From assembly GCA_037039685.1 (NCBI GenBank), contig JAWNGF010000010.1, positions 1,426,001 to 1,490,000 on the forward strand: DNA of 64,000 nucleotides. Reading direction: 5' to 3'. The stretch's first letter is position 1. Each line of letters begins with the position of its first letter. The DNA comes from Ceratobasidium sp. AG-K (Eukaryota; Basidiomycota; Agaricomycetes; Cantharellales; Ceratobasidiaceae). Of the stretch, positions 19,764 through 44,253 are shown piece by piece. The translations under genes and the position numbers were made by a program. A model generated the notes under the pieces. That model saw only the letters and a program-made list of their open reading frames with translations, ran no database searches and had not been told where the DNA came from.

Positions 19764-20050
19764 CTCACAAGGCGAAATTGTACCTCAAATGGTTTGAGGA
19801 CAATGGTATTGAGTTGCTTGAGTGGCCAGCATACTCACCCGATCTTAATTCGATCAAAAATTTATGGGCAGAACTCAAAAGGCATTTGGTCACCTATGAG
19901 GATGCCCCGAGTGGCATACTCGAGCTTTGGGAGTGGATTCAATCCAAATGGAATGCAATTCCACCCAAGTACTGCCACAATTTGGTTGAAAGCATGCCAA
20001 AGAGAATGGCTCAGGTGTTGAAACAACAAGGGGGAGTGATTTGGTACTAA
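19764..20050 (+). pseudogene. TcB transposase, 3' part
   Basis: Continues the frame broken at 14855: ...YLKWFEDNGIELLEWPAYSPDL, then the catalytic Glu region (SIKNLWAELK in place of TcA PIENLWAELK, so the catalytic Glu is Lys), ending GGVIWY stop at 20048-20050. With the Asn in the 5' part, two of three DDE residues are lost. Confidence 0.9.
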
Positions 20051-20225
20051 TCAGGATTGCCATTTTTGGGGTTACTAAAGTGTATGAACAATCTCCATGT
20101 TTTCTTATGTGTGTAACTCAACCATTTCCGATTCAATTCACGCAAAACACTATTTATTCTGTAGCTCCTATGATCATGTAACCCCTTCTTAATTTTCTGT
20201 ATTATTAACAGGCTGGCTCCCATAT
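20051..20225 (+). other. TcB 3' untranslated tail
   Basis: The non-coding sequence after the stop is recognisably like the TcA tail: catgtttt, then taact-a-cc-tttc, and aattttctgtattattaacaggctgg against aattttatatatttattgggaggctgg. Similarity fades near 20225, so the element's end is about there. No terminal repeat could be placed. Confidence 0.55.
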
Positions 20226-20439
20226 TGCACGGTGTACGCCAGAATGGCGCTTAATTTGCATATAGTTTTGTTGCTAACTGTACAGTTGACATCAATAAAT
20301 TGTTCATATGATGACCAGCTTCTGAAGTATTTGTTTCTAGAGTTCACTCGTAAGTACAAGAGAGTCCATCACCCATATACGGTGTGTGATGCCTACCTGC
20401 AGCTCTCGATCCCCATTCGGCATTGATGTCCAGAGCTAC

Positions 20440-22405
20440 CAATGAGTTTAATGCGTAAACTCTCAGTTCTTTTCCATCCAAAAAGGAAGGGCAGAACGTA
20501 CCTGAACATATTGCCAGGCTTTTTCCTTGTCGCCAAGCTTTAGTGTTTCCGTGCTTGTGATTTCGCAACACAGTTGTCAGTGTGGGGCTTTCGACGCAGA
20601 TCATCAGATTTACCTCACGTCTTTGAACAGCTCCCCAATCCTTAGAGTTCTTTTGGTGTCGTTCTGCAAGGCCTCGGTCCAGAGCTGTATTTCAATTAAC
20701 CCACGCATGTGAAGCACCGAGTACGTGACCAGCCTACCCGCGTAAAGAGGCCTGAGCGAAGGTCAGAGTAGTTTACACTATCCTGCCGCTGGTGGCAAGC
20801 GGCCCAGGTGAGCTGTGTCGAGCGCATCAAAAGGCAAACATCTCACGAACTATCCAGGACGATGATCTTACCACATTCGCCTGAATACTATCCATATCCC
20901 GCTCCTCTGGGGGAAGTTCTTCTTGCATCTCGATCTTCTCTTCGGTTCGAAACGGGCTTTTCACGGCGCCTACGGCATTGCGAATGCCTTGAGTGATTGA
21001 GTCTATTGCGCCTTTCGATCCGGGTCCGCGGAAGCCTGCTCCTTCAAGCTTTACAGTGTTATCTAAGGACCTCAAGTTACTATTGAAAGTCTGACACAGA
21101 AGCCGAACTCACTGAAAATCCTTCCGCTTGCGCAAGACTGCCGGAAGCTCAATCAAAGTGGGTGTGGAAGCATACCAGTATGCTTACATCTATGACACAC
21201 TGATCTCGAAAGTTCATCAACCATGAGACATTTTTGAAATTCGGACTCACGGTCAGGTTTGATCCTTGTGGCAATCTTGCGAATTCATTGTTCAGCTCCT
21301 GAACGTGAAAGTTCAGTTGTGCCTACCATTTACGGATCATTTGCTCACCCAATCATAGATGTAAAATGGTGGACCGGGGGTTGACTCGCCATGTATACCG
21401 CCTGAAATCCGTGTAACAAGCGCTAACAAGGACTGTTATTTATTGGAAACGCTATCAACGATGTATTCACCTTCATTGTAGTAAACTCGTTCGCTGGGCT
21501 TGATAGACTGGCTGAAAACCCGACCGCTTGGTTTCGCCAAAAATGCTCTCCGTTCGGTGTCCCCACTGCCAGGCTTGCCGCCCTCGTAAACCCTGCGCGT
21601 TTCCTTGCCTTTCCCTTTTTCACTGTCCGTGCGTACTCCATGACCGGAGACTATATGCGGAAACATTGTTAGCTGGCAACGAAGATATCAAATAATAGGA
21701 GACTGACAGTGAAAGAAACGATAGTCCCCCGGGGTTGTGCCGTTGACCAACCACCTAAGACTGTCCATCTGTAGCAAAGTAAGGTCGTGCCAGGAGGCAT
21801 GGCTGGATGGAAGACCTACAATATTCTCCCGAGTTGGGTCGCTGGCACCATTGAACCGAAATCCATCGGCAAGTATACGGATATTGGCAGGGTCGTACCC
21901 ACGATCCTCTAGCGTCGCAGTCAGTAACCATCTCATGATTGGGGTCGAGATAGGCTAGGTACTCAGAGTCTTATGCATAAGTACCGCATCTCGGATGGTT
22001 GACGGCATCCATCTAATGCCAGGTGTTTGCACGGCCTCGTGATCGCCGTAGACCGGAGCGACCTAATTATCATAATTACTACATCAATTCATGCATAGGT
22101 AGAACTTATTGGACTGGCGTACAATCAAAGCTCGACGCAGAGCTGAGGATCGGATGCTCCTGGTTGTATCTGCAATACGATCGCCTTGCAGGATTGCGAA
22201 CTCCAGTTCCCATTTATCTTCCGGACTCGCATCTTCCATTTGTTTTTTCTCGGGGAATATGCCTCTGCTTTGGGTTGTATTATAACTGAGTTTAGCAATG
22301 GGATAGTACGTCATGGCAGTAGAAAGAGTCAAATATCGAGGAGCTCCCTGCGCCAGTGGACGGACGTAGCCAAAATGAGGATACTGTCCTAGCGGAGAGC
22401 GAAAC
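20440..22405 (-). pseudogene. Metacaspase (peptidase C14-like) relic
   Basis: Minus-strand pieces in the right order for a basidiomycete metacaspase: N-terminal region ending RRALIV (22405-22090); MRWLLTATLEDRGYDPANIRILADG ... LRWLVNGTTPGDYRFFH (21936-21700); SGHGVRTD with the His of the catalytic dyad, ending near IVDSVSNK stop (about 21640-21430); ELNNEFARLPQGSNLTV (about 21300); a PPEERDMDSIQANV block (about 20900); and a CHQRQDS-type block (about 20790). The segment with the catalytic Cys (DSCHSG in the family) is missing or unrecognisable, and stops break the frame. It is a decayed gene rather than a working protease. Boundaries are approximate. Confidence 0.7.
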
Positions 22406-23340
22406 ATTTTGGGAGAAAAGAAATAAGTGGCGTGAGTAAATTAAGGGTGGTGGGAGGGTGGGGGACTGTTGCAACCGCTGCGGGAAGTCAGGTCCACGTT
22501 GGAAGGCATTTGCAAGCCTTTTTGACGGGAAGTACATTGAGTTCCCTGAGGCGGCGACTTACAGCCGTTCTGTGCTTGCGCGGTCTGGGTGCTATACTTC
22601 AAAACTTGACATCCAAGACGACCGAACAACGCCTGAAGGTCATCGGACCATAACAAATATATCAGTTAGGTGGGGCATAATCTACTCGATGATGGGTGCC
22701 TTGCCGCGCCCGATATATCATGAGCCGAGAGTGCGGAGGGCTATTGCCACCGGATCTTGGCATGCACGTTGCCTGAGGTAGGAGCCTGTTACTCGTATGC
22801 CTCGCGAAAGCTATCTCTCGTTTGAGAAAAAGAGGCCCCCTTCTGAATCATCAGCAAGAACTGCGAGGCTATCGAAGGCTATGGGCGCCATACACAGCAT
22901 GAAGCGGCTGCATATAGCGCCCATAGCGCCCGATATCCCTGCGCGCTTTTGTTGATGCTGTACCTACGTATGGAGCCCATGGGGTTTGAAACCGTTGACT
23001 CGGACCAGCCAGTTCATTACAGTATGTCTCCGTTGGATTTCGCACATTTTCAGGAGCTAGCTGTAAGTGTATCATTATTTTAGGGGACCAAATCTCCGAG
23101 AGCTACATGATCGAATGTTTATGCTTGTTGTGGCGGAGACGATAATCGGCCTTGTTGTCCTATTTTAAACTGACTGCATGTATCCGAAAGCTCACGTCTG
23201 ACTGTATTCGGTGGGCGCCGACTCTTCGATCTGGTACATCATCCCAACAACTGCACCCACAAAATATGCCTACTCGTACCCTAAAAGGGTATGGCTCTAC
23301 CAAATGCCAAAAATCTCATTTGGCTCGAGAGATCCTGTGA
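22406..23340. other. Intergenic, no gene recognised
   Basis: Only short unsupported ORFs. A perfect 11-bp inverted repeat GCTATGGGCGC (22878-22888) / GCGCCCATAGC (22917-22927) encloses a 28-base loop; this could be the end of a small element but nothing else supports it. Confidence 0.5.
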
Positions 23341-23555
23341 TGGAGGGTTCTTTCTCGTCGAGCTCGTGACAGCTCATGAGTGCTTACAAAACGTTATGAA
23401 CAAGAACAAGCCTTTTGCTCGTTCGTCTCATGAGCGCTTTTGAGCAATCCCGAGCGCTCCAGACACCGCCGAGAAAGGTCCAGGCATCACGAGACCTCCA
23501 TGAGCTAAACGATGTTTCCAGTTTTTGGTGGAGGGTCTCTTGGACCTGTCATATT
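23341..23555 (+). repeat. Dispersed repeat R1 (left of oxidase cluster)
   Basis: About 200 bp that aligns in the same orientation, with few gaps, to 33958-34150 (shared anchors CTCGTCGAGCTC, GCTCGTT, CGAGAAAGGTC). By eye roughly 70% of positions agree. Both copies are rich in GAGCGCT/TCATGAG-like half-palindromes. No ORF. Class unknown (SINE-like or MITE-like). Confidence 0.6.
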
Positions 23556-24597
23556 GCTGTTCTATACTTCATGCACATCGGGGGTCAGTAGTTCTTCTGG
23601 AAGACGGATCAACCACATGAGTCACGGCTAAACATCTCGGAACGAGACATACTGATGCTTTATCTCACGCATCTTCAATTTGGAGCCACCTCAGCTAACA
23701 GAAGTGGACTGGATCGTAGGCATCCTTGTGGAGGTGGGTAGCCGCCACCGGGTTTACCGCTCCGGACGGACTGGGCGCTATTCGAAACTTGGTTGCCCTC
23801 TCACGGGAGCATGATTCCGCGAGGTCTAGTCATCAGCCTCAACGGATCCAAATACACCACAGCCAAATCATCACAGCCACCCAGCAACGTGGCTCGTATC
23901 TGTCTAGGCTCGCGCCCAGCCGTTCTGAGCTTTGCGCCGCACCGCAGATGGGTCAGGGACGGAGAACTAAACAAAGAGGGGAGCGCAAAGCTGTAGAAGG
24001 GTAGGCTCGAAACCGGCCGCCTCCATTGCTGCCGCGTTTGTCGAGGTCCTACCGCAGCTATGGTATGTTGAGGTCCTAAGCGCTGGCGCATCGTCCGCGT
24101 CATGTGGTCATTAGATTAGTCGTTGTTTAGTCGCTGCTTGGTCGAGCTTGTGAGACGGCTGGTTACGAGCCAAGAATCTGTCGGGTTGCAGTGATAGAAC
24201 AACTGCACAGAACTGTTCCAACTTCAATGTTCACCTTCACACCGGATAGGGGTTCATTCCAGAGCGGTGTCACCAGCAACACGGCAATAACCCCGGGTGA
24301 TTTGCCATCGCCGTGCCAAACCGTGCAAGTGAGAGAGCTCACTCGCAAATCTGGGCTAGTTCAATGCCTACGCGTGGTAACTTTGTCTGATCTGCTCTGG
24401 GGGTTACACGGCTAACGCGACGAGCGCCATGCCGATCTGATTACATCAGTAGATACGAACTCGACACTAATTTAGGACCTTCTTGGGACAGTACTCTGTG
24501 AATTAGCCAAGATTCGTTTGCCGAGCTAATTCAACACGGCACTTTTTACTGATAAATCGGCCCGGTTTTATTCTTGTACAGGCACTAAATGCGGTAT
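23556..24597. other. Intergenic, no gene recognised
   Basis: No ORF with recognisable similarity, no intron-like signals in register and no clear repeat. Short ORFs on both strands overlap one another. Confidence 0.5.
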
Positions 24598-24840
24598 ATT
24601 AAAGCTAGAGCCTTGCCGCAAAATCAGACATGGTCCGGAAGTAGGATAAACATGGCTTCGTTGTGCGCCAGAGATATGGAACGGCGCCGGATCTGCTCAA
24701 GATGCTCGTCGAAAGGCGGCTTGACTTCCCGCATGCCTAGCCAGCCTAGGTACGTATGAGATAGAATAGCCAAATCAGGTTGATTATTTGGTCTGCATGT
24801 AGTTTGCAATAGCTGCAGTAAATCATAAATCAATGTGTAA
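24598..24840 (+). pseudogene. Relic of the last exon of a LodA-like gene
   Basis: The DNA matches the last exon and 3' flank of the intact LodA-like gene (33321-33540): TAAAG acceptor, GACATGGTCCGGAAGT, then a region translating as SDMVRK-stop-DKHGFV, and a CAGGTTGAT shortly after the stop. One codon is now TAG (TGG in the intact gene). The rest of the gene is not visible upstream. The fossil points toward the 3' end of the LodB-like gene at 25101, so an older oxidase copy once lay convergent with it. Confidence 0.8.
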
Positions 24841-25100
24841 AGTCCCGAGAATCAGAACGGTTCGGCGTGAGCTTGTTTCCAGATCATCAAGCGAGACCTG
24901 GCCTCTTTCCTCGTTTAGGGCGATGAGCCGGCGTATGCTGCTATCCTGCCCTCGTGGGAGCCCAACCAATCCGGCTGACCCACTCTGGGCTGGAAAAGGA
25001 ATAACCATGACTAAAAAATACGCTCGTTGTATTGGGTTGAGTCCGATAGAAAACTATGCATTAAATCCAATAGGCACGTCGCGAGTACACACCAGCTTTG

Positions 25101-26431
25101 TTACTTGGAACGCCGAGCCCAAAACGCGCCACGAAACATTGACTGAGTATAGTAATAGTCTTTATGCTGCTCATAGTCTTTTCTAACCTCCTCAAATACC
25201 TTCGTGACTGACGCGATATCTTCCGGCTCAGCTGGAGTACCGCAGCCTACGGTCTGGTTAGCCAACATAGCGCCAACTGACAAACCTCCGCGTAAGGCGG
25301 TTATCATGCCCTGGGATGACAATGGGTCAAACGCCATCGCTGCATCTCCGACAGCGCACCAGTGGTCCTCCTGGCTCCCAAACGGCGCAAGAAACGATGT
25401 TCCAGCACTGGTACATCGTGGATAATTTGTTTTTGTACCAGACATCGGGCGGTAATCGTTGCTGAGAATAGTCTGCGATATATGCGTTGTGTCTTGATGG
25501 AGCATATCCAAGAAAACCTCTTTGTTCCGAGCAGACTTTGCCGCTGCGTCGCAGTCGTCGGTGTGAAACGCAACAAGGCGTCTCTGATCAGGCAGTCGGG
25601 CACTGTACCACCAGCCGGTTTCTGCCGCCTCGATGAGAGTTCGACTGTCTCGGTCCAAGTTGGTTGTGGCAAACACCGCATAAAATGCGAGCAAGCTATC
25701 GAGTTTAACCATTTTGGCTCCGAGCTGGTATACATCTAAGATTTTTGGAGCTACTGAACGGGTGAGGTACGGCGTACCTTTCGAGCGACGGATGACTGCC
25801 TCCCTGAAGCATCCACCAGCCATTGTGCGCGATACTGTTGCATTTCCGCACCTTCCGAAGTCACGACCACAGTCCACGTTCCGTCATCGGCTTTCTCCGC
25901 AGAGCTAAAAGTGCCTTTGACAAGTGCACAGTCCTTGGCTTCTCGATTGGTACAGAATGAACGGACATGTTCCCTCAAAGACTCGTCGAATACAGGGCGA
26001 TCGAGATGCCAACCGGCGCCGTATGGGCTCATAATGGAGAACGTTTCTTGTAGATCAGGAGACTGCCAAACAGAGGCATTTCCTGCGCAGCGTGTATGCA
26101 GTCCTTGGGCGGTGTCCTGTGAAAGTCGTTCGAATAGCGAAGGAGATAGCTGGTAAAGGACCTGGTTGGCCCGTGGCGGCAAAGACTCTCCGATCTACCC
26201 AGATAACTCAGGATTGTGCTAAGCCACAGCCTGGGATGTGCGTACCTTGAACTGCGTAGGATTGGAGTTGTCCACAAGCAGAAATGAGGCCTGGGGCGCG
26301 TTGTGTACCAGCGACACGGCAGTAGCACAACCAGCCGGTCCGCCGCCGACAATGACCACTAACAACAAATGAAAAATTGTGGACGCATGGCAGTATGTAA
26401 AACTTCTAGGCTTACCGTCGAATGAGTTCAT
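25101..26431 (-). CDS. LodB-like FAD-dependent oxidoreductase
   Basis: Four exons on the minus strand: 26431-26416, 26358-26246, 26194-25778, 25724-25101; introns of 57, 51 and 53 bp, all GT-AG; 389 residues. Start chosen because it leads in frame through a 16-base first exon to the FAD motif. Motifs: Rossmann GGGPAG (10-15), IGES (44-47), DASGR (171-175), GWWYS (219-223), GDAAMAFDPLSSQG (308-321). These are the marks of the tryptophan-halogenase/LodB group of flavoproteins; the halogenase WxWxIP motif is not seen. In bacteria LodB and GoxB are needed to make the cysteine tryptophylquinone cofactor of LodA and GoxA, probably by hydroxylating a Trp. The LodA-like gene 5 kb away supports that role here (inference). 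Confidence 0.88.
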
Positions 26432-27008
26432 TGCAGGCTAGGTGGGACTAGAGAGACGTAAGCTCACGTTGCCCCTTATGAATTTGTCCCGCCCTTCACG
26501 AGCATTCATAATCCGGGTCTTTCCCATACGCTTGGTATCTCCTCATGTGGGCGAGTCTGCTGACCATTCAAGTTGGGATCTCAGATCTGGCAGAACAGTA
26601 TAGAACCAGGTCTTTGGAAGAATTGAGGACCACGCCGGTTTGAGGGTTGATCCGCCAGTGATGCGTTTGTCGGCAAAAGCCGAAGCGCAAATGAAAGCAC
26701 CGGGATTACTATGGTGGCTTCTGTCTCTGGTCTCAGTGCCAAACCACCAGGTTGCTTGATGATCGGATTGCTCTTTTCCTGGCGAACGAGGGTGGGCATA
26801 GCAATGGCATGCCGATGAGCGCTTGTATTTGGCTTGTTCGCCTGCGTGGTTACCCCACTACCACTTAGCTCTCGCGCCCCATTCCCAACGCAGCCACCCT
26901 CTGGCGCACAAAATGTGCGCTTTCGTGTGCACTCGCAATGTGCAGCTGCTGACGTCAATGGCACAGCTCTTACATAAGACGGTGCCTCATCGCACCTAGC
27001 TCAGCGAA
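26432..27008. other. Intergenic upstream of LodB-like gene
   Basis: Holds the promoter region of the LodB-like gene (read leftward). No clear TATA box in the first 100 bases. No other gene recognised. Confidence 0.4.
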
Positions 27009-27200
27009 AGCTGCACTCAGCAAAAATTGAAAGTGCTCCGATGCGCTCCGGAGCTGGGGTTTTGCTCAGGAGCGCTCTGTCAGCTCCGGAGCGTGCTGGG
27101 AGCGTCGCAATCACGTGCTCCTGAGCGCTCCAGGAGTCTAAGGAGCACTTCGGAACACTCACACGCTCCGGAGCATTTTCACTTTTTGCTGAGCAGTGCT
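27009..27200. repeat. Fold-back element (MITE-like)
   Basis: About 190 bp with imperfect terminal inverted repeats of roughly 38 bp: the left arm reads CACTCAGCAAAAATTG, then AAAGTGCTCCG; the reverse complement of the right arm reads CTGCTCAGCAAAAAGTG, then AAAATGCTCCG. The inside is full of CTCCGGAGC palindromes. No ORF. Confidence 0.6.
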
Positions 27201-28015
27201 AATTTAGGCTCGGGAGGGCTCGTTAGCGTAAACGAGCCCAAACTAGCACGTGCGGTTTTTTCTGAGAGTGCTGTCGAGCGTACTGGCAGCGACCGCTGTT
27301 GCACGCGACACAAGCGCAATTTTATCATTTTTTTTATCGTGGACTAACAATTCAGACATCCATCGCCTTGACTTAACATGCTTCCACTCGACCAATATTC
27401 CATTTCTGCCACGTGGTAGCCGCCAAGGCTGTACCAGAAATTTTCGCGCCATTGACACGCGCCGTGTCAGAACCGGGAGCGCCGTTACCATTCACAACAC
27501 ACCAGACACACCTAATGATCGCGACGCTCAACACTCGACTCATATGTGGATACATGAGACACGAGCGCCGCACACACTACGGAAATACGTGAGATCCGAC
27601 TTGTGACTTGATTCCTAACACCGATGCATGGCGATCGACATGGATCGCAGAATGGACGATTTAGTATAATACCTGATCCCTGACGCACGCAGCACCCGCC
27701 CTAATCTACCCCATTGATCTATTGGCGCATTACAGTTGTATTTATAATTATTCCATGCATACACACACCCTCGCCTTATATATTCATTTTACCGCAACTT
27801 ACCCTAATATCGAACCTCAGCATGACCTGATCGAATGAAAGAGGATTGATAGTCTAAGAGGGTACCGTACTAGTGTTTGATAATAGATCCATAGTGCTCA
27901 AGCTTGCAATGGTCGAGGTGCAGTCACCGAAGTCCTCGTGCGAAATCAGGCCGCCCGCTCTGTACCAGTATCAAATGCCCCAAGCTCTCGTAGAACGATT
28001 GCTCTACCAAAATAT
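27201..28015. other. Intergenic, no gene recognised
   Basis: Short ORFs only. AT-rich around 27660-27860. No supported gene. Confidence 0.45.
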
Positions 28016-28242
28016 CTGGGTCCAGGAGTGCTGGGGAGCGCCATAGTGTGACGGCCAGACTCACGGAGGCTCCGGAGCGCCATGCTGACATGATTCGACT
28101 GACTTATATGTCATTCTTTGTGCGTATCACACGTTTAGGCTACTAGACTAGGACAAGTGGGTTGACTGACAGCCGTGTGGCGCTCCGCAGCCTCCGGGAG
28201 TCTAACCGCGCACTATGGCGCTCCCCAGCGCTCCCAACCCAG
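28016..28242. repeat. MITE with 75-76-bp terminal inverted repeats
   Basis: 227 bp. The left arm 28016-28090 (CTGGGTCC...GCTGACA) and the reverse complement of 28167-28242 share most positions, including GCTGGGGAGCGCCATAGTG and the ACTC-CGGAGGCT block. The 76-bp AT-richer centre has no ORF. The target duplication is unclear. It lies between the LodB-like and ferritin-like genes. Confidence 0.8.
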
Positions 28243-28403
28243 ATGCTTTTGGTTGTGTGGTGGTCGGACTCCTTGTGCGGCTTGGTTTGAAGGCAGAGAT
28301 TTAATTAGACAGTCTTTCGTTTTTACAGCTGGAACGAACACTGTTGACACCACATTCAATTTCATTGATTCATCACATATAATGCCATCCAAATCAACGC
28401 AGT

Positions 28404-29782
28404 CTAAGAGTCGAGTTGGGAAAGGTCGAACAGGCCTCTTGCCCTGCTTAGCGCAGTTTGAAGTTTTTTATTCGTCGGATAATTGTCTGATGCCGTCTGG
28501 AGGGCTTCCACAAGCTCGCGATGAGCTGACGCCACAGAGCTGAAAGGGTAATAATTAAAAGGGGGTGCCGCATACTTCTCGCCTCCGTCAAGTTTCTGAG
28601 TGACAAGGAACTCGGCACAATACTTCATGATAAACTTCATGAGTGGCATAATATTGCCAATGAGATCCTGTCGATGATTACTCGCAGTCCAGCATTTTTC
28701 GATTGACAACAAAAGATAGCAGTACTGTAAGGAGGAGTATCAGTCAAGTACCAAACTTAACGAGTCGTAACCATACCGCTGCATCTGATGCCAGCATAAC
28801 CTAGCTAGAATGTGAGCAAAAATGGACGCATATATTGGGGCTTCACTTACTGTTTGTATGTTCCCTTTGAACTGCGACGTGATGGGATCTTCGACGGTAG
28901 GAATGTAAGGGATATCTTGCCCTGCCAGCTCTTTAAATATTTCATAGTGAGAGGGCGTGACTAGATTATCCGTTCCGGTGCTTCCTTCGCCTTGTTCGAC
29001 GATGAGTTTTAAGGCCGCCAACGCTTCGGCAAGGTTTGTGATAGCGTGCAACCCCTCGTCGTGGTATATGCGGTCTGCCGGGACAAATTGCTTGTCCGTT
29101 GTGCTCGGATCGAAGAGACCGGGTGTCTTGTCGTTAAGAATCTTTAGTCCTGGTATCCAACGTCCCAGAATTGCTCGAGCACCTCAGACATCTATGATTC
29201 TTACCTAAGCCAAAGCTTTCATAGAATTCACCGATGCTACCGTAGCCCGGCATAATGTTTCCCCTGGGCAGGGTAATGGGCTCAAAGGGCTCTTCGACCT
29301 AACCGAAAGGAATTAACGCAATAAAAACGTCAAACGCCGAAATGTGCTTACTTTGACGAACATATCAATAGTATCTTTATGTGGCGGTGCGAGATGCAGC
29401 TCCAGAGGATCGTAGAATATTTCACAGGGATACTTTGGTGTGTGTTCTTCACCCCAGAGAACCGGTTCAAATTTGCATGCGCGCATTAGGTTTCCCGCCA
29501 GGCAAAGGTGGAGCATTTCCTGGATCACGATACCTGAGGGGAAGTTTAGCACTGAAATGAGCACATCCGACTGACGAGCCCACCTCTTATTTTGTCGGAC
29601 GCATCACTCTCATCCTTATCAACGTCCACACAATACATCGAGAACAGATACATCGGAATAGTATGAAGCTCCAAGAGCACTGCCGTTTGACAATGCTTCT
29701 TCAGCTCATCTAGATTCCACTGGGTAGGCCAGCCGCGAGGTGCTGGGAAGGCAGGCTTCGGAAGAGATGACGAGTCGGGCAT
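28404..29782 (-). CDS. Ferritin-like VioB/RebD dimer-synthase-type protein
   Basis: Six exons, minus strand: 29782-29584, 29533-29352, 29298-29205, 29149-28851, 28800-28777, 28724-28404; introns of 50, 53, 55, 50 and 52 bp, all GT-AG; 372 residues. The exon joins restore family-like sequence, for example KIRG|IVIQEMLH. Putative metal-ligand residues are E38/H40 (LLELHTIPMYL) and E72/H75 (QEMLH). Later parts match the ferritin-like domain found in violacein VioB and rebeccamycin RebD-type iminophenylpyruvate dimer synthases (GYGSIGEFYE, APPFNYYPF near the C-terminus). VioB itself is about 1000 residues, so this is the stand-alone short form common in fungi and bacteria. Its reaction here is unknown. 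Diverges from the LodA-like gene and sits beside LodB. Confidence 0.8.
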
Positions 29783-29835
29783 CGCGAAAAATAGAGCCTA
29801 GCAGGATGTGTGCCGGCCATCATGTCCCAAGCTGT

Positions 29836-29847
29836 CTCTATTATAAC
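29836..29847 (-). promoter_or_regulatory. TATA box of the ferritin-like gene
   Basis: GTTATAATAGAG on the minus strand, about 60 bases before the start codon at 29782. Spacing is usual for a fungal core promoter. No transcript data. Confidence 0.4.
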
Positions 29848-29859
29848 ACCAGCTACGAG

Positions 29860-31130
29860 GCTCCACGGGCGAGTAATCAAAGTAATGAGCATATCGTGAT
29901 TGGGCTACCAAAATAAGATGTCGACTTTGCGGTATCGTGAGCGGAACTTTTCGGATTTGGTGATGCTTGCTCTCGGGCCCTGTGGGATTGTTGAACTAGT
30001 CATGCGCTCAATGCGATCTTGATGATCGCACGCCTTGCCGGGCCGAACAGTGGCTGAAGGGGGTAGATCCACGTACTGACAATCACCTACACGCCAAATT
30101 CGGCTGTCCCTCGATCTAAAAGCTGTCCACGACTCGTTGTAGTGAGTTATGCTCCTCGGTGATGTCGAAGGTTCACGTTCCCTACGCCAGATTGTGTGAT
30201 CAAAATTTGCACACAACTCTCCGCGCTTCTTGAAGTCTTCTCTGATTTTCAGCGTCTACCATCGGGAGTCTTTGAACCCCAGGTAGCGGTATCAAGCCCC
30301 TTCTTCGACGATGACTCCCGTTTGTCCTGCGCGGCTACCGTGTGGCGCCAATCAATTCTCCTGCGCTGGCCAATCACGGCTCGAGGATTTCCATCCATGC
30401 GCACTTTGTTCTAGTTCACCGCAAGTCTCAATTCATCATTTATGCGAAGTTAAACGCACCTGGGCGCTCAAGAGAAAGCTAGCATGCAACCAATGAGCAT
30501 CGGGCATACATCGAAACACGGTGACTACATAGGCTGTACTCAGTAATGCATGTATGAGCCAACCAAGGATTGTATTAGAAGAGAGCGAGCCACATGTCCA
30601 GTTAGCCAGTGGCATTATCAGTGTTGGCTCTAACCTTGAGTCTACGGAAAGCGCTATTTTTGGTGACGAGATCTCGACCAGATCTCGCGGACACATTTCA
30701 CCGGTTCAGATTAAGCAAGGTATTGGACCACAAGAGCTGCTGATGCTAATCACGGTTAGGTATGAAGAAATATCAAGAACCCCGAAGAACCGGCCATGTT
30801 CGACATTTGCCGCAATTCCGGTTCGGTGTCCTTTCTATTACTTGAGGTGGGGTGAGGCGTTTGAGTGCCCCTCTCCTAAAACCTTCTCTATCTTTTGCGC
30901 ACCCCTAGAATAAAGCCAATAAAAAAAATGAAGTCTCGAGGATATCGACGCGTTTGTACATCGGCGAACCTACTTGGGTCGCTAGATATATCATGAGGCG
31001 GCGTGGATATCGGTACCTACCGAGTAGTTTACATGGGGGCGCTCGGGCCTATTCCCTGAGCTTACCGAATTTTTGGTCTTCCTTAGGAGTAGGTTGGGTC
31101 CTCCTGCTCCATAGCAGCTTTGATGACCAG
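29860..31130. other. Divergent intergenic region
   Basis: About 1.3 kb between the ferritin-like and LodA-like starts. Contains only small overlapping ORFs without recognisable motifs. Probably carries the upstream control regions of both genes and some decayed sequence. Confidence 0.4.
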
Positions 31131-31138
31131 TCTCGTCG

Positions 31139-31148
31139 GAGTATATAA
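31139..31148 (+). promoter_or_regulatory. TATA box of the LodA-like gene
   Basis: GTATATAACC about 55-60 bases before the ATG at 31202, in the place expected for a short 5' UTR. Confidence 0.45.
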
Positions 31149-31201
31149 CCTGACAAGAAGAGCCGTTGGATGCATTCTCCAGGGAGCACTCTCGTATCAT
31201 C

Positions 31202-33457
31202 ATGTCTTTCACACCAGATCAGGTTGCATACGTTGACATCTATCCACCTATCAACATCGCTCGAGTAGGAGGTAAGTGTTAAGACTATCTTTGACGAGAC
31301 TAACGACTGATCGATATGTAAAGACTCGAGCGAGTACTTCATCGGTACAGAGATTCCCGGGGTTGAGACTGTTCCTGAAGGCGGGTTCAAAGACAAGGAC
31401 CAGAAAATCAAGAAGCAGGTAATTATGTCTTATATCTAACGCATACAGTCGCTGAGCGGTATCGTCGTCAACATAGGCTGCCCGTTTCCGGGTGTACGCG
31501 TTTGACAAAGACTCGAAGCCACTTGGAGAAGTCACCAGCAAAGACTACCTATTGACATGGACCTGCCATGTCGCTAACAAAAAAGCGGCCTGGGTCATCT
31601 TCCGGGGCAAGTACAGGAAAGAGACGTGGCAGCTACGCAATAAAACCGTTCAGGGATGGGTGGGTTGAGATGCGTTTTATGTTAGATGATATGCTTACAT
31701 ATATGCTGAATAGCCAGAAGGACAGCCGCCAAACTACGATTACACAAACACCCGAACTAAGCTGATTATTGACTCTGGGGAGCAAACGATCGAAGGAGAA
31801 AACGCTCAGTCTGTTGCTCTCCAGGGAGAGTTTCAGGGAAGTCTCGACAAAGCGATTCCGGTGCAGCTAGGCGAACTCCGTACCGATGAGCATGGCCGCT
31901 TGCTTGTTCTGGCCAGCGACGGGGACTCGTTCTCTGCCATTCCTCCGGCTCATCAAGACCTTCACTCTGGCTTCGATAACGATGGTTGGGTCAGTTTACC
32001 TCTTAAGTTTTCAAATGTGTCTACAATGACTGAAGCAACACCTTAGGTGGACAAGATGTGCGATGGAAGCGTTCGCGTTACAGTCAAGTCCAAGTCCCAG
32101 CCCGAGTAAGCGACCCGTGGGTTCTCTCATGCCGCTATACTAACTTGTGCTCACGTAGGTTGAAGATCACTGTCAAGAATAGGGCGACGATCCTAACGGC
32201 ACCCCCGAGGTTCGCTTCCGGAACACACATTCCGACAACGTTATATGAATTGATCGAGGATATATATGAACAATCCCGCCGCGGCAAGGGGTATGATGTT
32301 GGGGAAGTAGTTTACTACCGCGACATCTACCCACTATTCAGGAGGATATATCTACTATCTTGGACCAATCAGTTTGCTTTTGACGGTCACGGTACGAACA
32401 TCAGTAGCCTGCGTTGTACCCTCACTCACAAACCCTCCAAAAGGGGCCTCCAATATGGACTATTTCGATAACCCCGATTTATCTGATCCTCAAGCGAACA
32501 ACAAGGCGCGTCGCAGAATTTTCCAAAAAATGCGACTTTACGTCGTTGATGGAGATGCGGACAACGAGAGGATCCGGGATGGGCAAGCTAACGATAAGTT
32601 TATGCCTCGTCTTGCTGGAGATGATGGTAAGACGAGAAATCCCACTTACACATACTGATGTGGTCTACTGACCTGAGCCATCCTAGGGGACTGCCAACCT
32701 GGCGTTCGCGATCGCTGGGCTTCCTTGACGCGACTTCAGTATGAGCGAATGCAGAAGTGGTCGGAGGGGAACTTCACCACAGGGCAGCCGGAGGTTCCAT
32801 ACGAGTCCTTTGATAAAATCCCACTCGCACAGCAGCCAGACGCTCTGACTCGTTCGGCAATCGAGTGGTCGATTGGAGCCCCTCTGTATCCCGGTATCGA
32901 ATGCTTCTGGATTGCGCAGGCGTCGAAGATGTATAACCTAAGGGAGAAGTTTCGGTTTTCCGATATCGTAACACCTGGCGACCTCGGCAAGGGTCTGTCT
33001 CTCCCGTGGCAGTCTGACTTTAACATGTGCAATACACATTGGTGAGAGTTGTTTTCGGAAAGATGCAAACACAAACTGACATTGACTCTTGGACTAGGTG
33101 GCCATCGGTATCTATTTCCTCTGCGTCACTAATTGGACGCGCTGTTGACTAAGAATTATAGGTTCGGCCGGATGTTGTTGTGACCGAGGAGTACTTCCAG
33201 CAGGTGAAATCGACCAGTCTGCCAGACCAGTTGGCTAGCAGTTTGAAAAAGCGCTTCCCATGGGATCAAGGTAATCAGGAGTACCTGGCTTCCCAGCCAT
33301 TCTAACATAACTGACTTTGTCTAAAGGCCTTAACACGAATTCGGACATGGTCCGGAAGTGGAATAAGCTTGGCTTCGTTGCGCGCGAGAAATACGAGACG
33401 TCACCCGATCAGCTCGAGATTCTGATCGAGAGGCAGCGTGATCTCCCGCGCTCTTAA
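31202..33457 (+). CDS. LodA-like CTQ-type amino-acid oxidase
   Basis: Eleven exons: 31202-31271, 31324-31418, 31477-31659, 31714-31989, 32047-32105, 32159-32391, 32444-32626, 32687-33041, 33098-33107, 33162-33270, 33327-33457; all GT-AG; sum 1704 nt, 567 residues, no stop. Family marks: DIYPPINIARVGDSSEYFIGTE (1-35 region), KKQAARFRVYAFD, DNDGWVDKMCDG, QFAFDGHG, SIGAPLYPGIE (428-438), PWQSDF, and WWPSVRPD (485-492). LodA and GoxA oxidise L-lysine or glycine, releasing H2O2, with a cofactor made from a Cys and a Trp. The Trp pair W485/W486 is present. At the place where I expect the cofactor Cys the residue is Ser428, with C439 close by. Exon 9 is only 10 bases. Substrate unknown. Cytosolic: no signal peptide. 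Confidence 0.87.
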
Positions 33458-33957
33458 CCGGCCTCAATGTTCATGAGACGGACCAGCCGGGTCAGGTTGA
33501 TCCTTCGGCTTACTTGTAATTTGTAACAACTGAAGTGAATAATGAATCAATTTGCATCGCCTTGAAGGAGTAAGTCGCTGCGGGGTTCAACTCACAAAGT
33601 TTGCACTCGGGTCATCAGGAATATCAATTCTTTTGGGAGGACTATGGATCCTGCAATTGCTACGTATACACAACCTACGTACGACCCGAGAGCGCTACGT
33701 AGAGCGGCTTCGCAGGTAGCATAGAGTTACAAAATATTCGTGCGCCCTGTATTTCCTGTGGTAGATGTTAACTAATTCGCAGATTATACGTTGCACACCG
33801 GAGATCACCCAAAATTCGTCTGGCTAATTTTGACTCGATTCTGGCTGCATTCCGGGCAGACGAGCGTCAGACCCGACTCTGACCGAGGTCGGGCTGATAA
33901 TGTGAGCAAGATGCGATGTCCGTCAGTAAAAAACTGGGATCTCGGATGGTCTCAGGA
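33458..33957. other. Intergenic 3' of the LodA-like gene
   Basis: 3' UTR (AATGAATCAATTTG near 33540) then unassigned sequence. The first part is shared with the relic at 24736-24840. No gene seen. Confidence 0.4.
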
Positions 33958-34150
33958 CTAAGGGGCCTTCCTCGTCGAGCTCATGGCAGCTGGTGAGCGC
34001 TCACAAGCGGTTACGAACACTCACGAGAAAAATGCTCGTTTATCTCTCGGGCGCTCACGAGACGTCACGAGAACTCGGGAGACCAACGAGAAAGGTCTCT
34101 GAATCCCGAAGCGTTACGAGCCCGACGAGAGTTTTGAATTTTTGTAGAGT
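33958..34150 (+). repeat. Dispersed repeat R2 (right of oxidase cluster)
   Basis: Direct-orientation partner of 23341-23555, starting CCTTCCTCGTCGAGCTC and including CGAGAAAGGTC. Together the two bracket the LodB-like, ferritin-like and LodA-like genes plus the LodA relic (10.6 kb apart). Confidence 0.6.
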
Positions 34151-35259
34151 GGACACGGATCAACCAACCGAGCGTGAGGAGACCGAGGAAGAGATCGCTG
34201 AGAGAATCACCAGCCAACTTACACTCAATGATTGACATCCTCTGTAGGACTTTCTGTCATCTATCCCTCACTTTCATTTCGCTTTGTACATGTAGTCTTT
34301 GTCTGGTTACAAGCTATGTACATATTTATACCCCCAAAAGGGGAGTTACGTCAGAAACCCGATCCAAAAGCAGAGCTGACAAAGCTGCTTGCTCGTGTGT
34401 TGAGAAACCCCTCCTCAACGATAAACTTACATATGAAATGTGACCATCACGATCGTTAACGAGGGATTCGGCTGTATATAGCACTGTATAGTCCTTAATT
34501 GCTCCTCAGGTGGTTGCTGAAGCGACTGCCACCCTTGTTTCATCTTTGGTCAATTCGCCTATCGCATTGTGTAGATAGTGTATTAGAGTGGAACTTGGGC
34601 CTAATGTGACAAGTTAAATATGTCAAAGTGTCAATGCCAACTTGTGGCATGAATTATATACCAAAGATTGATATTATGATCAACTCTCAAATCTTGGGTA
34701 TAATTTATGCTGATTTTTGGCGAGTACCAAAAACGGACAACTGGTATAAATTTTACCAAAACCTAAAAAAAGGTCAACTCTGCCGAAAATTTCAGTATAT
34801 AAGGTTATACCAGAGCTCATGGCTTACATTACTAGACGTGTCCGCTTTCAGTGAGCAATGCGCTGAAGATTATCTTCGGGGGTGACTGGGGGGCAAATTA
34901 TCCCCACAACCTAATTAAATGTCCCCTTTGTGGTACTGATGGCCGCGAACCATGCGCAAGGTGACTGAAAAAAGATGTAATCCATCACTGAGAGCGGCCA
35001 TTTTCGGTTCAGTGCACTTGCAGATGTTATTCAGTAACCTGAGACCCCACAGTGACGTTGTCAACAGCACGGTTTTGTGTTCAATTGATTTCGTTTACAA
35101 CTGCTAGATATTCATCAAATCGATATAGATTTTTGCAAAAGAATTCAAAGAGTGTACAATCCCAAAAACGTGGCACAGGATTATCTATCCGGTTTATTTC
35201 AGGCGCTACCCCAACCGCCAACAAGACTCGCGCAGCATCGACGAGTATCAGATGTCCGC
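34151..35259. other. AT-rich intergenic, no gene recognised
   Basis: Low-complexity AT-rich DNA, especially 34600-34830. Small ORFs without motif. Nothing else supported. Confidence 0.5.
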
Positions 35260-36018
35260 TTACCGATACCCTGTTGTCATAACGTAATAAAAAGGGGACA
35301 TAAAGGCAAGAGAAGAAGTATACTCACACCAGGTTATTCCAAAGACGCCAACATCGAGGCCAGTGAACGCCTGAAACAGCCCAGGAGTGAGGTCGAGCGA
35401 GCCATAGGCGCACCCAGGGCACTGTTGATCCTCAATTAGTAGATGGTCCAGAATGGGTTCTCATCACACTTGCCAGATCGACAATAGCAGCGTTCACCTG
35501 CTTTCCGTAGGCTTGGATGGTGATGCCACGCCAGCAGTTGGCACCACCGTTCCAGAGCTGCCGAGTAATTCAGTCAGTCTATATGCGTAGGTCTATGGCG
35601 ATGCCGAAACCTCACAGGCTGGTCAAGAGCGACAACATACTCATTGTCATAGTTGAACCCACCGCAGCTGTAAGCATGGTCAGCATGCTCCAGTATGAAA
35701 ACACATCCCCCAGACGTACGCCCCAAGGCCGGTGTGGAACCACGTCGCCTGACCAGAGTACGCCTGCCTCTTGGCCATGTCCCGCTGGGTCAGCGGTCCA
35801 TGCGCGTTCTTGTCATACGGAAGCCCATGGGTCGCATTGTACCCAGCGGTCGCGTTGTAGACGGTCACGCCTGGAGGAGGATCATGATAGGGAACGACAC
35901 CGAGGGGCAGTCCAGCGGTGCTGTTGCTCGCAGGAGCGACAGCGGGAGCGGGAGCGGCGAACGCGAACAGTGAGGTGGAAAGAAGAGAGAGAGCAGCAGA
36001 GACAACGGAGAACCTCAT
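35260..36018 (-). CDS. Secreted double-psi beta-barrel protein, copy 1
   Basis: Five exons: 36018-35720, 35667-35616, 35557-35474, 35421-35328, 35270-35260; 179 residues. Signal peptide MRFSVVSAALSLLSTSLFAFA, a Pro/Ala-rich propeptide with N-glycosylation sites (NST, NAT twice), and a Lys-Arg before QAYSG that looks like a Kex2 site. The mature part is a barwin/expansin-like (RlpA-like, DPBB) domain: YSGQATWF, WNGGANCW, PGCAYGSLDL, ending FGITWWYR. Probably an extracellular carbohydrate-binding or effector-like protein; no catalytic motif proven. Intron 3 has a GC donor (GATCTG|GCAAGT) where copy 2 has GT. Paralogous with 38394-39164 and transcribed away from it. Confidence 0.88.
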
Positions 36019-36098
36019 GGTGAGTGTGATGCAAGTGAGAAATTGAGAGAAAAGTGGGCACCAGTCGCTGGATGGTGAGCTCAAGCAATGTGGGTCTG

Positions 36099-36108
36099 TC
36101 TTTTATAG
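36099..36108 (-). promoter_or_regulatory. TATA box of DPBB copy 1
   Basis: CTATAAAAGA on the minus strand about 85 bases before the ATG. The 5' UTR between it and the ATG is similar to that of copy 2 (CACCATCCAGC-ACTGG block), so the promoter-proximal part was duplicated with the gene. Confidence 0.6.
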
Positions 36109-38295
36109 CGCACAGCGATCTCGTCGAGTAACCAAGCGAGCATCAAGCAATCTGATAGTCTTCCTGGAAAAAAATCGTCTCTTACACAAACCATCTTCCC
36201 ACAAACACTGAGACGCCTCCAAAGTAGATTTTGAAGTGGCCACTGTCACACATGGTGTACGTTCGCGTAACCCGCCTAAGAACCCACACTTGTGGCCCAA
36301 ATGCGAAGCCACCGTATGTTCCATCGATGAGATTCCGACGGACGGAGTTGATAGTCCGACATTGGCTCGCTCCCAGTTATCGAAGGTACGTCCAGCATTT
36401 TCCAAGTAAGGCATTACAATCCTCACTCAAACAACTGTGGCACCTACCGTTTTTGGAAATCCCAGCTGGTTGTCCCAGTCATTTCGGCCCTCGCCTCGAG
36501 ATACCAAGCGAACCGTTCGACATGCCTCAAACTGTCAATATTCCTGATTGACTAGTAATGGAAGTTTGTCGGATAGAAGGCGAGCATCAGCTTATCTCAA
36601 CGGATTTTCTGTGTTGACTATGGCCGGTCGGGAGCTCACGAGGTGCTCGGCAAAGTATTAAGAATGCTTGTTGTCCAGCGGAAATGCCTGCGTATGAGCA
36701 AAACTGGGAAGAAACGAACCCTGAGCGTCTCTATCAAAAACTTCCTCAACAATCGTGTCAATCGACAGGCGGACACAAACTTATCGGGGTTATCAATTAT
36801 CTGAACAATCAAATCCCCAATTATCAATGCCCTTTATTGGCTGCGCAAATGACCAGACCAGGAACAAGCGGCCCGACCCAACAAGCGGGCGCGGGCAATC
36901 TACGCCGAACAGATAGCGCCGCGGTCGCTTGTGGGACCCGGGTCTATCCGCTTATCTCGTATATGACTTCTGGCAGCCGTTTCTTCGAGCGGGAGTTTCT
37001 CACCGCCGCTTAAACCGACGCCTTACTTGCCTTAGCCGGATCAACCTTTTGTATATGGACGTGAGGTATCAAAGTATACGAGTGTATGCGCCCCTATCCG
37101 GCAGGAGGGTACAAATGGTCCAAGAGGAATTGGATAGTGAACAGTACTTAGGTAATTACAGTCCTGAGTGAAGAATGTGCATCCATCCAAGCAGCATTGG
37201 GAAACTGCGCTAAAGTTCAAACCTTGTTGCCACCCACCCTCAGTCCTCGTAAGTGGTTGCACGCGGTCTCCAGTAAACGACGATGTATAAGCCGCTGATT
37301 GAACACCTCTCTGCAACCAAACAAGATTGGACAAAGGGAGAATGCTCTAATTTAAAGGAAGCGTTTTGACCTAAACTAAGCCAATATCTCAACCAAGAGA
37401 CCCGAAGTTTGATTGTTTAGGCTCGTCTATTCCAACTATAATGAGCGAAACATATTGAAAGCGCAAGCCGCACTACCGCAAGTCTTCCACAGGCTACAAA
37501 CCAAAGTTGAGTAGCCAGACCTTGGTCCGAGAAACAGCCGTTGTCACTACTTCTCCGGTGTAAACGGCCCGTACATATCTGCCGAGGCTGACCCTTGTTC
37601 CTAGTTTGGTGATTTGCGCAGCCAATCATACGGACCCATGATTAAGAATTTGATTGTCGAGGTACACAATCGAGTTGATAACCCTGTTTGTGCACATCAA
37701 TTGATATGCTGGTCGAAGGACGACTTGCTAACAGAGGCGCCCAAAGGCTACAGTTTGTCGGTCTTGCCCACTCAAGCGACTTCCGCCAACGAACACACTT
37801 GGTCAGCATGTTATCCAGACTATTGTCAACGGCATATGCGTCTAACCTCTGTAGCTTCTAGATTTCGCAATTCTGCCCGATCAGCAATACTATTGAACTG
37901 AGGCACATGCAAAGGTAAGGTGCCAAATATGTCCAGACCGGGACGCAACTCGAACCAATAGTGAACTCTAAAAATAGTGGGTAGTCCTAAACCGTCATGA
38001 TTTTGCCTATTTTAAAAAATGCGGGAATTATTTTCGACAGTCTTTGTATGTGAACGCCAGCTGATTTGCTCGGATTGCTGGAATACCTCTGATAGAAAAG
38101 CGATCGCTTGGTATTTGATCACAATGGTGTTCCGGTTCTTGAGCGGCTCGAACAAGCGCGAACCATGTGTTACATTGGGCGCTTTTGTCTACATTGCGTC
38201 GGTATACGGGTTTAGGTAGTACGCGGATGTCTAGGAATCTTGTTGAAGGCAGAACTATTCCAACGCTTGACACAGCCTAGTTACTTGACGAGATC
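36109..38295. other. Shared intergenic region between DPBB genes
   Basis: 2.2 kb with small overlapping ORFs on both strands and no recognisable domain, repeat pair or RNA gene. Probably regulatory plus decayed DNA. Confidence 0.45.
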
Positions 38296-38302
38296 TCAGT
38301 AT

Positions 38303-38312
38303 GCTATAAAAG
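38303..38312 (+). promoter_or_regulatory. TATA box of DPBB copy 2
   Basis: GCTATAAAAG about 85 bases before the ATG at 38394, with the same downstream leader as copy 1. Confidence 0.6.
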
Positions 38313-38393
38313 ATAGGCTTGCATTGCCCTATCTCACCATCCAGCAACTGGTACCCACTCTACTCCACAGCTCTCACTCACATCCTACTCACC

Positions 38394-39164
38394 ATGAGGT
38401 TCTCCATCGTCTCTGGTGCTCTTACTCTTCTGTCCACTTCTCTCTTCGCATTTGCTGCGCCCGCTACTGCTCCCAACGCTGCTGTCGCTCCTGCGAGCAA
38501 CAGCACCGCTGGACTGCCCCTCGGTGTCGCTCCCTATCATGCTCCTCCTCCAGGCGTGACCGTCTACAACGCGACCGCTGGGTACAATGCGACCCATGGG
38601 CTTCCATATGACAAGAACGCGCATGGACCGCTGACCCGGCGGGACATGGCCAAGAGGCAAGCTTACTCTGGGGACGCAACATGGTTCTATCCAGGCCTTG
38701 GAGCGTAAGTTTGATCTCCTTGACTTGTTGTTTCAATCACATTAACGACGAAATAGTTGCGGTGGGTTCAACTACGAGTGGGAGTATGTCGTAGCTCTCG
38801 ACCAGCCTGTGAGTGCTCGGTATCTCCATAGATTCACGCATATAGGGTGACTGAACTACCTGGCAGCTCTGGAACGGCGGTGCTAATTGCTGGCGCGGCA
38901 TTACTATTCAAGCCTACGGAAAGCAGGTGAACGCCGCTATCGTTGATCTGGTAAGCATATTGTTAGGTGATCAACTTCATATGCTCACCAATGACATGCA
39001 GTGCCCTGGATGTGCTTACGGCTCGTTGGACCTCGCCCCAGCGCTGTTCCAGCAATTTACTGGCCTTGATACCGGACGTTTCGGCATCACCTGGTGTAAG
39101 TGACTCTCGCCTCGTTATTCCGCGCAACTACCTCACAATGCTTCTGGCAATAGGGTACCGGTAA
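38394..39164 (+). CDS. Secreted double-psi beta-barrel protein, copy 2
   Basis: Five exons: 38394-38704, 38757-38808, 38867-38950, 39002-39095, 39154-39164; 183 residues. Signal peptide (1-21), Ala/Pro-rich propeptide with NST and two NAT sequons, Lys-Arg at 87-88 (Kex2-type), then the DPBB domain (YSGDATWFYPGLGACGG; WNGGANCW; VDLCPGCAYGSLDL; TWWYR end). Intron positions and phases equal those of copy 1, so this is a recent duplicate. Likely secreted to the wall or apoplast; whether it loosens walls, binds chitin or is an effector cannot be told. Tail-to-tail with HEM13, 249 bases apart. Confidence 0.9.
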
Positions 39165-39413
39165 ACGGCTTCGCGGTCGCCGCTCGTCAATGCTCAAGTA
39201 GAGCGAGCGACCCGATCAACAATGATGGATAAATGAAAGAATAACTTTGTTCAATGCTTCCCTTTTGATTTTTGAAATTCTCGGGCATCTGCCCGATGTC
39301 AGTTTGTACCGTTTTGAACAGAGACACGTTTGAGAAACGAAAGTGTGACATTTATCACCCGACCCTAAGGTAAAACACTTCCAACCAAACTTTTCATCCG
39401 AAAACAAGAAAAT

Positions 39414-42859: not shown

Positions 42860-43119
42860 GCGGCTGGGCTTGGCAGCCGAGCGTGAATTCCGTGTGGTTT
42901 TGGGGTTGACGCGTGGTGTGGAGCGTGTTTATTCTTCTTTTCTTTACGATGATTATGTTTCCACGATTCGGACTCGAATGTTTTGAGATGTACGATGTGA
43001 ACCAAAATGATGTATTCGTACTTGTTTGATTGATATTGATGATTTCTACACCGCTTGATACGAGTCTCGTGGGCATGTGTAGAACGTAAAGGCGACTATT
43101 AGAATCGAAAGTTGCAGGG

Positions 43120-43430
43120 TCAGTTGGGTTGTGCTTTACGTTTGGCCGCCATTACCCAAGTTGGGAATTTGACACGCGGATTGAGCTCGAACCAATGTAC
43201 CTCCACCTTTGCCGGATCTGAACTCGTGCTAATGGTCATTGAACCCGAGCTTGCTGACCTGCGCATCCCGTAATAACTCGTTGCTAGACCGTGGGGAACT
43301 CGGCTATCGGGAAACACCGCCACTTGATCGGCTATCCCGTCGATCAACCGCTGCGCCACAACAGACGTGTTGTCACAATTAACCTGCACGAGTCGGTGGC
43401 CGTATCGTACGACAATCAGAACCTCTTAAA
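43120..43430 (-). CDS. Hypothetical ORF, possibly an exon
   Basis: About 100 codons open on the minus strand (YGHRLVQVNCDNTS ... FPTWVMAAKRKAQPN stop), without a clear start. I recognise no domain. It could be the last exon of an uncalled gene or chance. Confidence 0.25.
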
Positions 43431-44250: not shown

Positions 44251-44253
44251 TTA

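Follow-up and report, generated by a model that had tools for sequence, protein, structure and literature searches.

A LodA-like oxidase gene grouped with a LodB/GoxB-like flavoprotein gene and a PF12902 ferritin-like gene in Ceratobasidium sp. AG-K, and the linkage of these families in some bacteria

In a 64,000-nucleotide stretch of the genome of the basidiomycete Ceratobasidium sp. AG-K (assembly GCA_037039685.1, contig JAWNGF010000010.1, positions 1,426,001 to 1,490,000; hereafter the window), three genes at 25.1–33.5 kb encode a LodA-like protein, a LodB/GoxB-like flavoprotein and a ferritin-like protein of Pfam family PF12902 (hereafter Fer). Judged from its sequence, the LodA-like protein is probably an oxidase with a cysteine tryptophylquinone (CTQ) cofactor. 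We give about an even chance to the reading that the trio is one redox unit, in which the CTQ oxidase and its maturase would be joined by a diiron partner acting on the products of the oxidase. What is new here is bacterial evidence that the third gene is probably a true partner of the oxidase, since the Fer-LodA linkage recurs in some bacteria, and that it probably encodes a diiron enzyme.

The grouping itself has been known in fungi since 2015, when all five fungal lodA-like genes of PMC4417212 were reported to have lodB in the opposite orientation and a ferritin-like gene nearby or in between. The window trio is a further member and shows the arrangement of group V of that report, with LodB opposite LodA and the ferritin-like gene between them. 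The spread of the trio across fungi is taken from PMC4417212. An earlier note on this DNA had known of no characterised pairing of this kind: the pairing is in print for those five genes, and its function had not been tested there as far as the accessible text goes. Literature searches combining LodA-like proteins or quinohemoprotein amine dehydrogenase with ferritin-like proteins returned this 2015 paper only, and a search for LodA with heme oxygenase-like and diiron found no paper. No report of bacterial Fer-LodA-LodB operons or of the split loci described below was found by title or abstract opening, in a search that left subscription journals mostly outside.

The three genes and their products

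The earlier note had described three intact, intron-rich genes within 8.4 kb. All three are present and open, with Pfam scores above the curated cut-offs, and their measured gene span is 8.36 kb in the order LodB (−), Fer (−), LodA (+) (Table 1). The region outlined in that note began at 24598, ahead of the trio; a decayed LodA remnant on the plus strand is found there, and the first trio gene starts only at 25101. The gene models were built from splice sites and homology, not from transcripts. All 18 introns of the trio measure 50–60 nt and keep the frame, including ten GT-AG introns of 52–60 nt each in the LodA-like gene.

Both LodA domains were detected in the LodA-like protein, namely LodA_N (PF17990, 175.7 bits, cut-off 26.3, residues 14-225) and LodA_C (PF18417, 93 bits, cut-off 25, residues 374-493). 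Aligning this protein with eight plasmid-borne bacterial relatives showed Cys481, Trp486 and Asp477 to be the same in all nine sequences. When compared with solved LodA (2ymw, 3weu), Cys481 and the second Trp of HWWP align on the CTQ residues, the Trp-bearing stretch being weak if taken alone (7.2 bits). By homology, the putative CTQ would be formed from Cys481 and Trp486, with Asp477 beside them, and the claim that the oxidase is of CTQ type is borne out at this level. The Cys-to-Trp distance is 5 residues in the fungal protein versus 65 in LodA. Among the 49 bacterial LodA cores compared, a set that the search motif has enriched, 23 likewise have a spacing of five. The fungal protein reaches 138.9 bits against the L-lysine 6-oxidase model NF038172 (equivalog cut-off 600) and 298.3 bits against the glycine oxidase model NF038173 (GoxA, equivalog cut-off 750), below the cut-off in both cases.

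LodB and GoxB have an established role in CTQ formation of bacterial LodA and GoxA, and by analogy a role in CTQ formation is probable for the window flavoprotein. It falls into the FAD/Trp_halogenase group of Pfam (Trp_halogenase 40.7 bits, cut-off 21). In agreement with the LodB-like label of the earlier note, its closest NCBIfam models are GoxB (209.4 bits) and LodB (195.4 bits), followed by QhpG (124.8 bits, cut-off 240). Since the cut-off for both LodB and GoxB is 400, and all three scores are below their thresholds, the protein is to be regarded as a relative, not a proven equivalent. CmlS and other halogenases are its best solved relatives, and QhpG (7ctq) stands lower in the list.

Fer matches PF12902 with 127.9 bits (cut-off 22.3) and has a solved relative in 3hl1 (E 8e-12), a Caulobacter vibrioides protein (PMC9705886). 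It has six putative diiron ligands (Glu38, Glu72, His75, Glu129, Glu213 and His226; 4 Glu/2 His). Of the 24 alignment rows that span every one of these columns, 22, that of the fungal paralogue among them, show the same residues, and the other two, both from Calothrix, have Asn at one position. Four further rows cover the columns in part, and repeat loci of the same genes had been removed before counting. Four carboxylates plus two His is one known ligand set of ferritin-like diiron oxygenases (PMC13108848). The earlier note had called this protein VioB/RebD-type. Its membership of PF12902 stands, and the narrower label proved too specific: no NCBIfam model, VioB (TIGR04492) included, is matched at E 0.01, VioB, according to PMC9705886, contains heme b and shows catalase activity, and the six-ligand set is kept. 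We therefore describe Fer as a PF12902 protein that is probably a non-heme diiron enzyme, and infer its metal content from the ligands. Elsewhere in the genome, a near-identical pair of PF12902 genes is found on two contigs (L012/L013; C13:1519 kb and C14:107 kb; 99.46% over 2577 bp), and a hand-joined gene model of the C13 copy keeps all six ligands.

Linkage of PF12902 and of a second diiron-type domain with LodA in bacteria

The PF12902-LodA tie holds beyond the fungal genome. Fer, LodA and LodB lie on one strand, in that order, in four bacterial loci (L074, L084, L086 and L101), and the Pfam families are over cut-off in all four of these operons. In L074, a second, fragmentary LodA N-part (6762-8107) lies directly upstream of the operon and recalls the LodA remnant beside the fungal trio. 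In a sample of 245 genomes, PF12902 was present within 5 kb of LodA in five of the 25 LodA-bearing genomes (G013, G057, G137, G210 and G253), compared to 0.028 expected. G013, the centre genome of this sample, had been picked for its LodA, and without it the count is 4/24; the expectation was computed with G013 included. This linkage suggests a genuine functional tie between Fer and the oxidase.

The other samples gave lower counts. LodA was found in 12 of 398 genomes, with Fer in the stretch for two of the 12 (the locus of G004 being L036), and in 12 of 367 genomes, with Fer nearby in one by coordinates; G574 is shared between these two samples, and G004 and G009 are their respective centre genomes. 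A 296-genome sample yielded three LodA-bearing genomes, G013 again among them, and Fer was present in none of the three loci of the other two. In L104, LodA is cut by the contig end and neither Fer nor LodB is visible. Most bacterial LodA loci have LodB and no Fer nearby. Bacterial genomes yielded no relative when the fungal LodA was the sole query; a two-sequence alignment, used together with the motifs [ME]CNT[HA]WW and [VK]P[EA]GGFKD, picked up 16 loci. Because of these motifs, the share of spacing-five proteins given above and that of the fusions described below are enriched and are not natural frequencies.

Fer is also present in six bacterial loci (L068:4903-11722, L069, L070, L080, L081 and L082) that combine PF12902, a radical-SAM protein, a flavoprotein of LodB/QhpG type and a LodA-like quinoprotein split into an N-part and a part bearing the CTQ motif. 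The hosts are Mycetohabitans endofungorum, Embleya, Streptomyces NRRL F-2580 and three genomes of a Streptomyces-order sample. L068, L069 and L070 were chosen for their nearby Fer and serve as examples, not as a rate. In L069, L081 and L082, the CTQ motif and PF12902 are within one open frame. The LodA_C match is weak in these loci (22.5-26.2 bits, cut-off 25) and LodA_N is under its cut-off or unreported, as judged from the two loci scanned, while the local LodA profile gives E 5e-6 to 7e-10. L069, L081 and L082 also have a weak flavoprotein match (about 1e-9 to 4e-10). Of these loci, L068 alone was compared with QhpG and QhpD-type models. The split loci look like a hybrid of the LodA and quinohemoprotein amine dehydrogenase systems.

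A different diiron-type partner is present in proteins of about 1080-1370 aa, in which a C-terminal heme-oxygenase-like diiron-type domain follows LodA (LodA-HDO fusions; L024, L033-L041, L045-L048 and L077-L079). They make up 17 of the 49 bacterial LodA cores compared. Of the 19 LodA proteins in the set compared that match the fungal one best, 16 are such fusions (31-36% identity). In each of the four complete fusions subjected to a Pfam scan (L046, L024, L071 and L045), PF14518 follows the LodA part; it was not detected in the Pfam scan of L039, which is cut by a contig end. PMC4417212 assigns PF14518 to an N-terminal position in five LodA proteins; in Calothrix PCC 7103, a strain of its table, the domain lies after the LodA part here too. 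A model of the fused extension (mean pLDDT 79, pTM 0.61) has a predicted diiron N-oxygenase fold, with its best matches among proteins that act on small amines, residues past 289 being barely covered by the fold comparison. In Streptomyces cinerochromogenes, a 1044-aa protein with C-terminal PF12902 (L046:6152-9283) is encoded divergently from the LodA-HDO fusion, about 650 bp away. Its first about 670 residues have no Pfam match and the whole protein has no NCBIfam match.

Proposed mechanism and rival explanations

In the redox unit that we propose, LodB would help convert Trp486 and Cys481 of LodA to CTQ, by analogy with the homologous pairs of bacteria. Once mature, LodA would use O2 to oxidise an amino acid or a related amine to an imine, which would go on to an aldehyde or keto acid, with release of H2O2, and Fer, as a diiron protein, would take the imine, the aldehyde or the H2O2 into a second oxidation. 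Among the closest bacterial relatives found, most have a fused heme-oxygenase-like diiron-type domain that would play the same part. We infer this product-side role of the diiron partner, and prefer it over a role in maturation, because LodA often occurs with LodB and without any Fer or HDO match in the vicinity, and because the best fold matches of the fused alternative act on small amines. L075, L076, L093 and L095 are examples in which LodA has the spacing of five and LodB is present; in the L075 and L076 genomes, the two of the four that were searched, PF14518 is present elsewhere.

Several observations weigh against this reading. The fungal LodA and LodB are far under the LodA/GoxA/LodB/GoxB equivalog cut-offs, so that substrate, and even activity, are not predicted from the scores. 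On the LodA tree, which leaves out split proteins, cores <380 residues and L101-L105, the fungal protein is a long branch of unsure place. On the Fer tree, which leaves out L101 as well as L069, L070, L081 and L082 (domain match too short), the fungal Fer groups only with its own paralogue, apart from the bacterial linked Fers. The Fer match is partial in L069, L081, L082 and L070, leaving two or three of the six ligand positions uncovered. Contigs C13 and C14, which carry the other two fungal PF12902 genes, show no match to LodA, indicating that a PF12902 protein also has a life apart from LodA. At the genome level, PF12902 (80 of the 245 genomes overall) is not enriched with LodA (11/25 versus 69/220, p 0.26), and the signal is therefore one of adjacency. 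Finally, some LodA proteins bear a catalase-fold domain instead, which fits peroxide removal equally well (PMC4417212).

The trees also bear on the origin of the grouping. On the Fer tree, the label "LodA-linked" shows no clustering (a value as low was reached in 108 of 500 shuffles). Because the linked Fers are scattered and the fungal Fer stands apart from the bacterial ones, the Fer-LodA link may have arisen more than once and the grouping may be convergent. A single bacteria-to-fungus transfer of the whole trio is unsupported, as the fungal LodA is unplaced and the linked Fers are scattered.

The catalase-fold fusions also argue for an alternative in which Fer would be a catalase- or rubrerythrin-like scavenger of the H2O2 released by LodA, with no role in product chemistry. 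The PF12902 profile matches bacterioferritin (E 0.00027; the match to dimanganese pseudocatalase is non-significant, E 0.7), and the catalase activity ascribed to VioB, also a PF12902 protein (PMC9705886), points in the same direction. The fused bacterial alternative, however, has a predicted N-oxygenase fold and not a catalase fold, and many LodA loci have LodB only; we consider a peroxide guard rather unlikely. Slightly less likely, in our view, is a second maturase, which would add the first oxygen to Trp486 or aid the thioether before LodB completes CTQ. The company of Fer in the six split loci, with cofactor-making genes (radical SAM, LodB/QhpG type), is consistent with such a role, as are the three of them in which Fer and the CTQ motif share a frame and the report that the first hydroxylation of LodA/GoxA is ascribed to autocatalysis, not to LodB (PMC7876137). 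On the other hand, the frequent LodA and LodB pairs with no Fer or HDO match nearby, also at spacing five, speak against it, and QhpG alone inserts both oxygens in its own system (PMC7876137).

The earlier note had proposed a VioB/RebD-like coupling, in which LodA would make an imine and the PF12902 protein would dimerise it. VioB does use an imine from a partner amino-acid oxidase (PMC9705886), and three of the PF12902 proteins scanned match the VioB model weakly (17-35 bits, cut-off 1250). The window Fer is not among the matches to this or any other NCBIfam model; it has 372 aa against 1003 positions in the VioB model, VioB is reported with heme b, and no further tailoring gene is seen among the ten window frames scanned. 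We regard imine coupling as quite improbable. That LodA and LodB alone belong together and Fer is a chance neighbour appears very improbable indeed: although the trio is not in one operon in the fungus and PF12902 is common elsewhere, the bacterial operons, the adjacency count and the ferritin-like genes beside five fungal lodA genes (PMC4417212) all argue against it.

Returning to the redox unit, a wider version seems possible and, to us, rather doubtful. In this version, CTQ oxidases and diiron oxygenases would repeatedly have been combined into a two-enzyme machine, the diiron part being drawn independently from two unrelated folds (ferritin-like and heme-oxygenase-like). Electrons or peroxide from quinone amine oxidation would drive diiron O2 activation without an outside reductase, and the amine would be oxidised and oxygenated in one coupled reaction. 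Since 2015, fungal LodA-like proteins have been set apart as a group of their own, whose ferritin-like neighbour was left unexplained. The operons and split loci of bacteria, together with the fused heme-oxygenase-like domain, lead to a testable rule, that a subset of CTQ oxidases pairs with a diiron partner. If true, this would provide a new amino-acid oxidation route and a reason for the trio genes staying together.

Genomic setting and comparison with known systems

Table 1. Features of the window (positions within the 64,000-nucleotide stretch; aa, amino acids).
Feature	Position	Strand	Description and basis
LodA-like protein, probable CTQ amino-acid oxidase	31202..33457 (incl. stop codon)	+	11 exons, 567 aa; splice sites and homology
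LodB/GoxB-like FAD flavoprotein, probable CTQ maturase	25101..26431	-	4 exons, introns 51-57 nt, 389 aa
PF12902 ferritin-like protein (Fer)	28404..29782	-	6 exons, introns 50-55 nt, 372 aa
Decayed remnant of a second LodA C-terminus	24612..24737	+	tblastn and blastn; 52% identity to residues 526-567
Segment occurring twice on the contig	19764..46711	.	Other copy C10:1014903-1041846; 99.76% identity
Copia- and gypsy-type retrotransposon frames around the trio	763-3909, 15083-19453, 49442-54249, 57024-59762		Pfam survey
DDE transposase fragment	19664-20050		Pfam survey

Because a decayed LodA C-terminus lies beside LodB, a second LodA gene probably once adjoined it. The duplicated segment is 26.9 kb long, its copies are about 430 kb apart, and repeated DNA is found at both junctions. 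The two copies show 64 differences, none of which falls in exons or introns of the trio genes on the difference map, and the outer kilobases have diverged more than the middle. Taking the assembly at face value, the segment was duplicated recently. The two copies may be an assembly artefact, against which speaks the fact that their outer flanks differ. Intron-blind searches of the whole genome (53.6 Mb, 17 contigs) detected the LodA_C family in the two segment copies only and gave no match to PF14518.

The Pfam survey of the window is partial and covers 10 open frames, the introns of non-trio genes not being modelled. No polyketide synthase, non-ribosomal peptide synthetase or cytochrome P450 was found among them, and these frames lend no support to a biosynthetic cluster. 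A fragment of coproporphyrinogen III oxidase (heme pathway) lies within the duplicated segment at 39955-40731 (-). The stretches 35469-36132 and 38280-38955 form an inverted pair of 0.68 kb each with 81% identity, the former including part of a secreted-looking small protein with no Pfam match. An inverted repeat with 78-bp arms (28006-28253, 85% identity) lies between LodB and the ferritin-like gene, near a stretch that, by eye, is full of short GC-rich palindromes.

Among known systems, the group V LodA loci of Gymnopus luxurians and other fungi (PMC4417212) share with the window the same three families and the same LodB orientation. The window differs by its one intact set, exactly duplicated in the 26.9-kb segment, and by the additional decayed LodA remnant. 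The bacterial Fer-LodA-LodB operons have the same three families and the same six ligands. Their LodA proteins, in contrast, are only 27-33% identical to the fungal one in L074, L084 and L086 (L101 being outside the comparison), and the trees do not join the bacterial-operon proteins to the fungal ones.

With the LodA/LodB (L-lysine 6-oxidase) and GoxA/GoxB (glycine oxidase) pairs of marine bacteria, the fungal system has in common both LodA Pfam domains, the CTQ Cys and Trp and a flavoprotein partner. It departs from them by its scores below the equivalog cut-offs, the spacing of 5 instead of 65, a length of about 570 aa and the ferritin-like partner. In addition, Tyr434 precedes PGIE in the fungal protein where LodA reads CPGIE, as seen by eye, the alignment leaving these two residues unpaired. 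The LodA-HDO fusions (PF14518) resemble it more closely in their Cys-Trp spacing of five, a CNTxWWP-like motif and a diiron-type partner; their partner is fused and heme-oxygenase-like, whereas the fungal one is separate and ferritin-like.

RebD is a member of the PF12902 family, to which VioB belongs by relatedness, and these proteins of the rebeccamycin and violacein pathways are likewise partners of an amino-acid oxidase. They are, however, about 1000 aa long, contain heme b (as reported for VioB) and work with a flavin-type oxidase, whereas the window protein has 372 aa and no match to the VioB model. The QhpC/QhpD/QhpG system, which matures quinohemoprotein amine dehydrogenase, shares CTQ and a flavoprotein of the same superfamily (QhpG, 7ctq). 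Quinohemoprotein amine dehydrogenase also has a short Cys-Trp spacing. A search of the window with the radical-SAM protein of L068 gave no match, and the window flavoprotein scores lower on QhpG than on LodB or GoxB.

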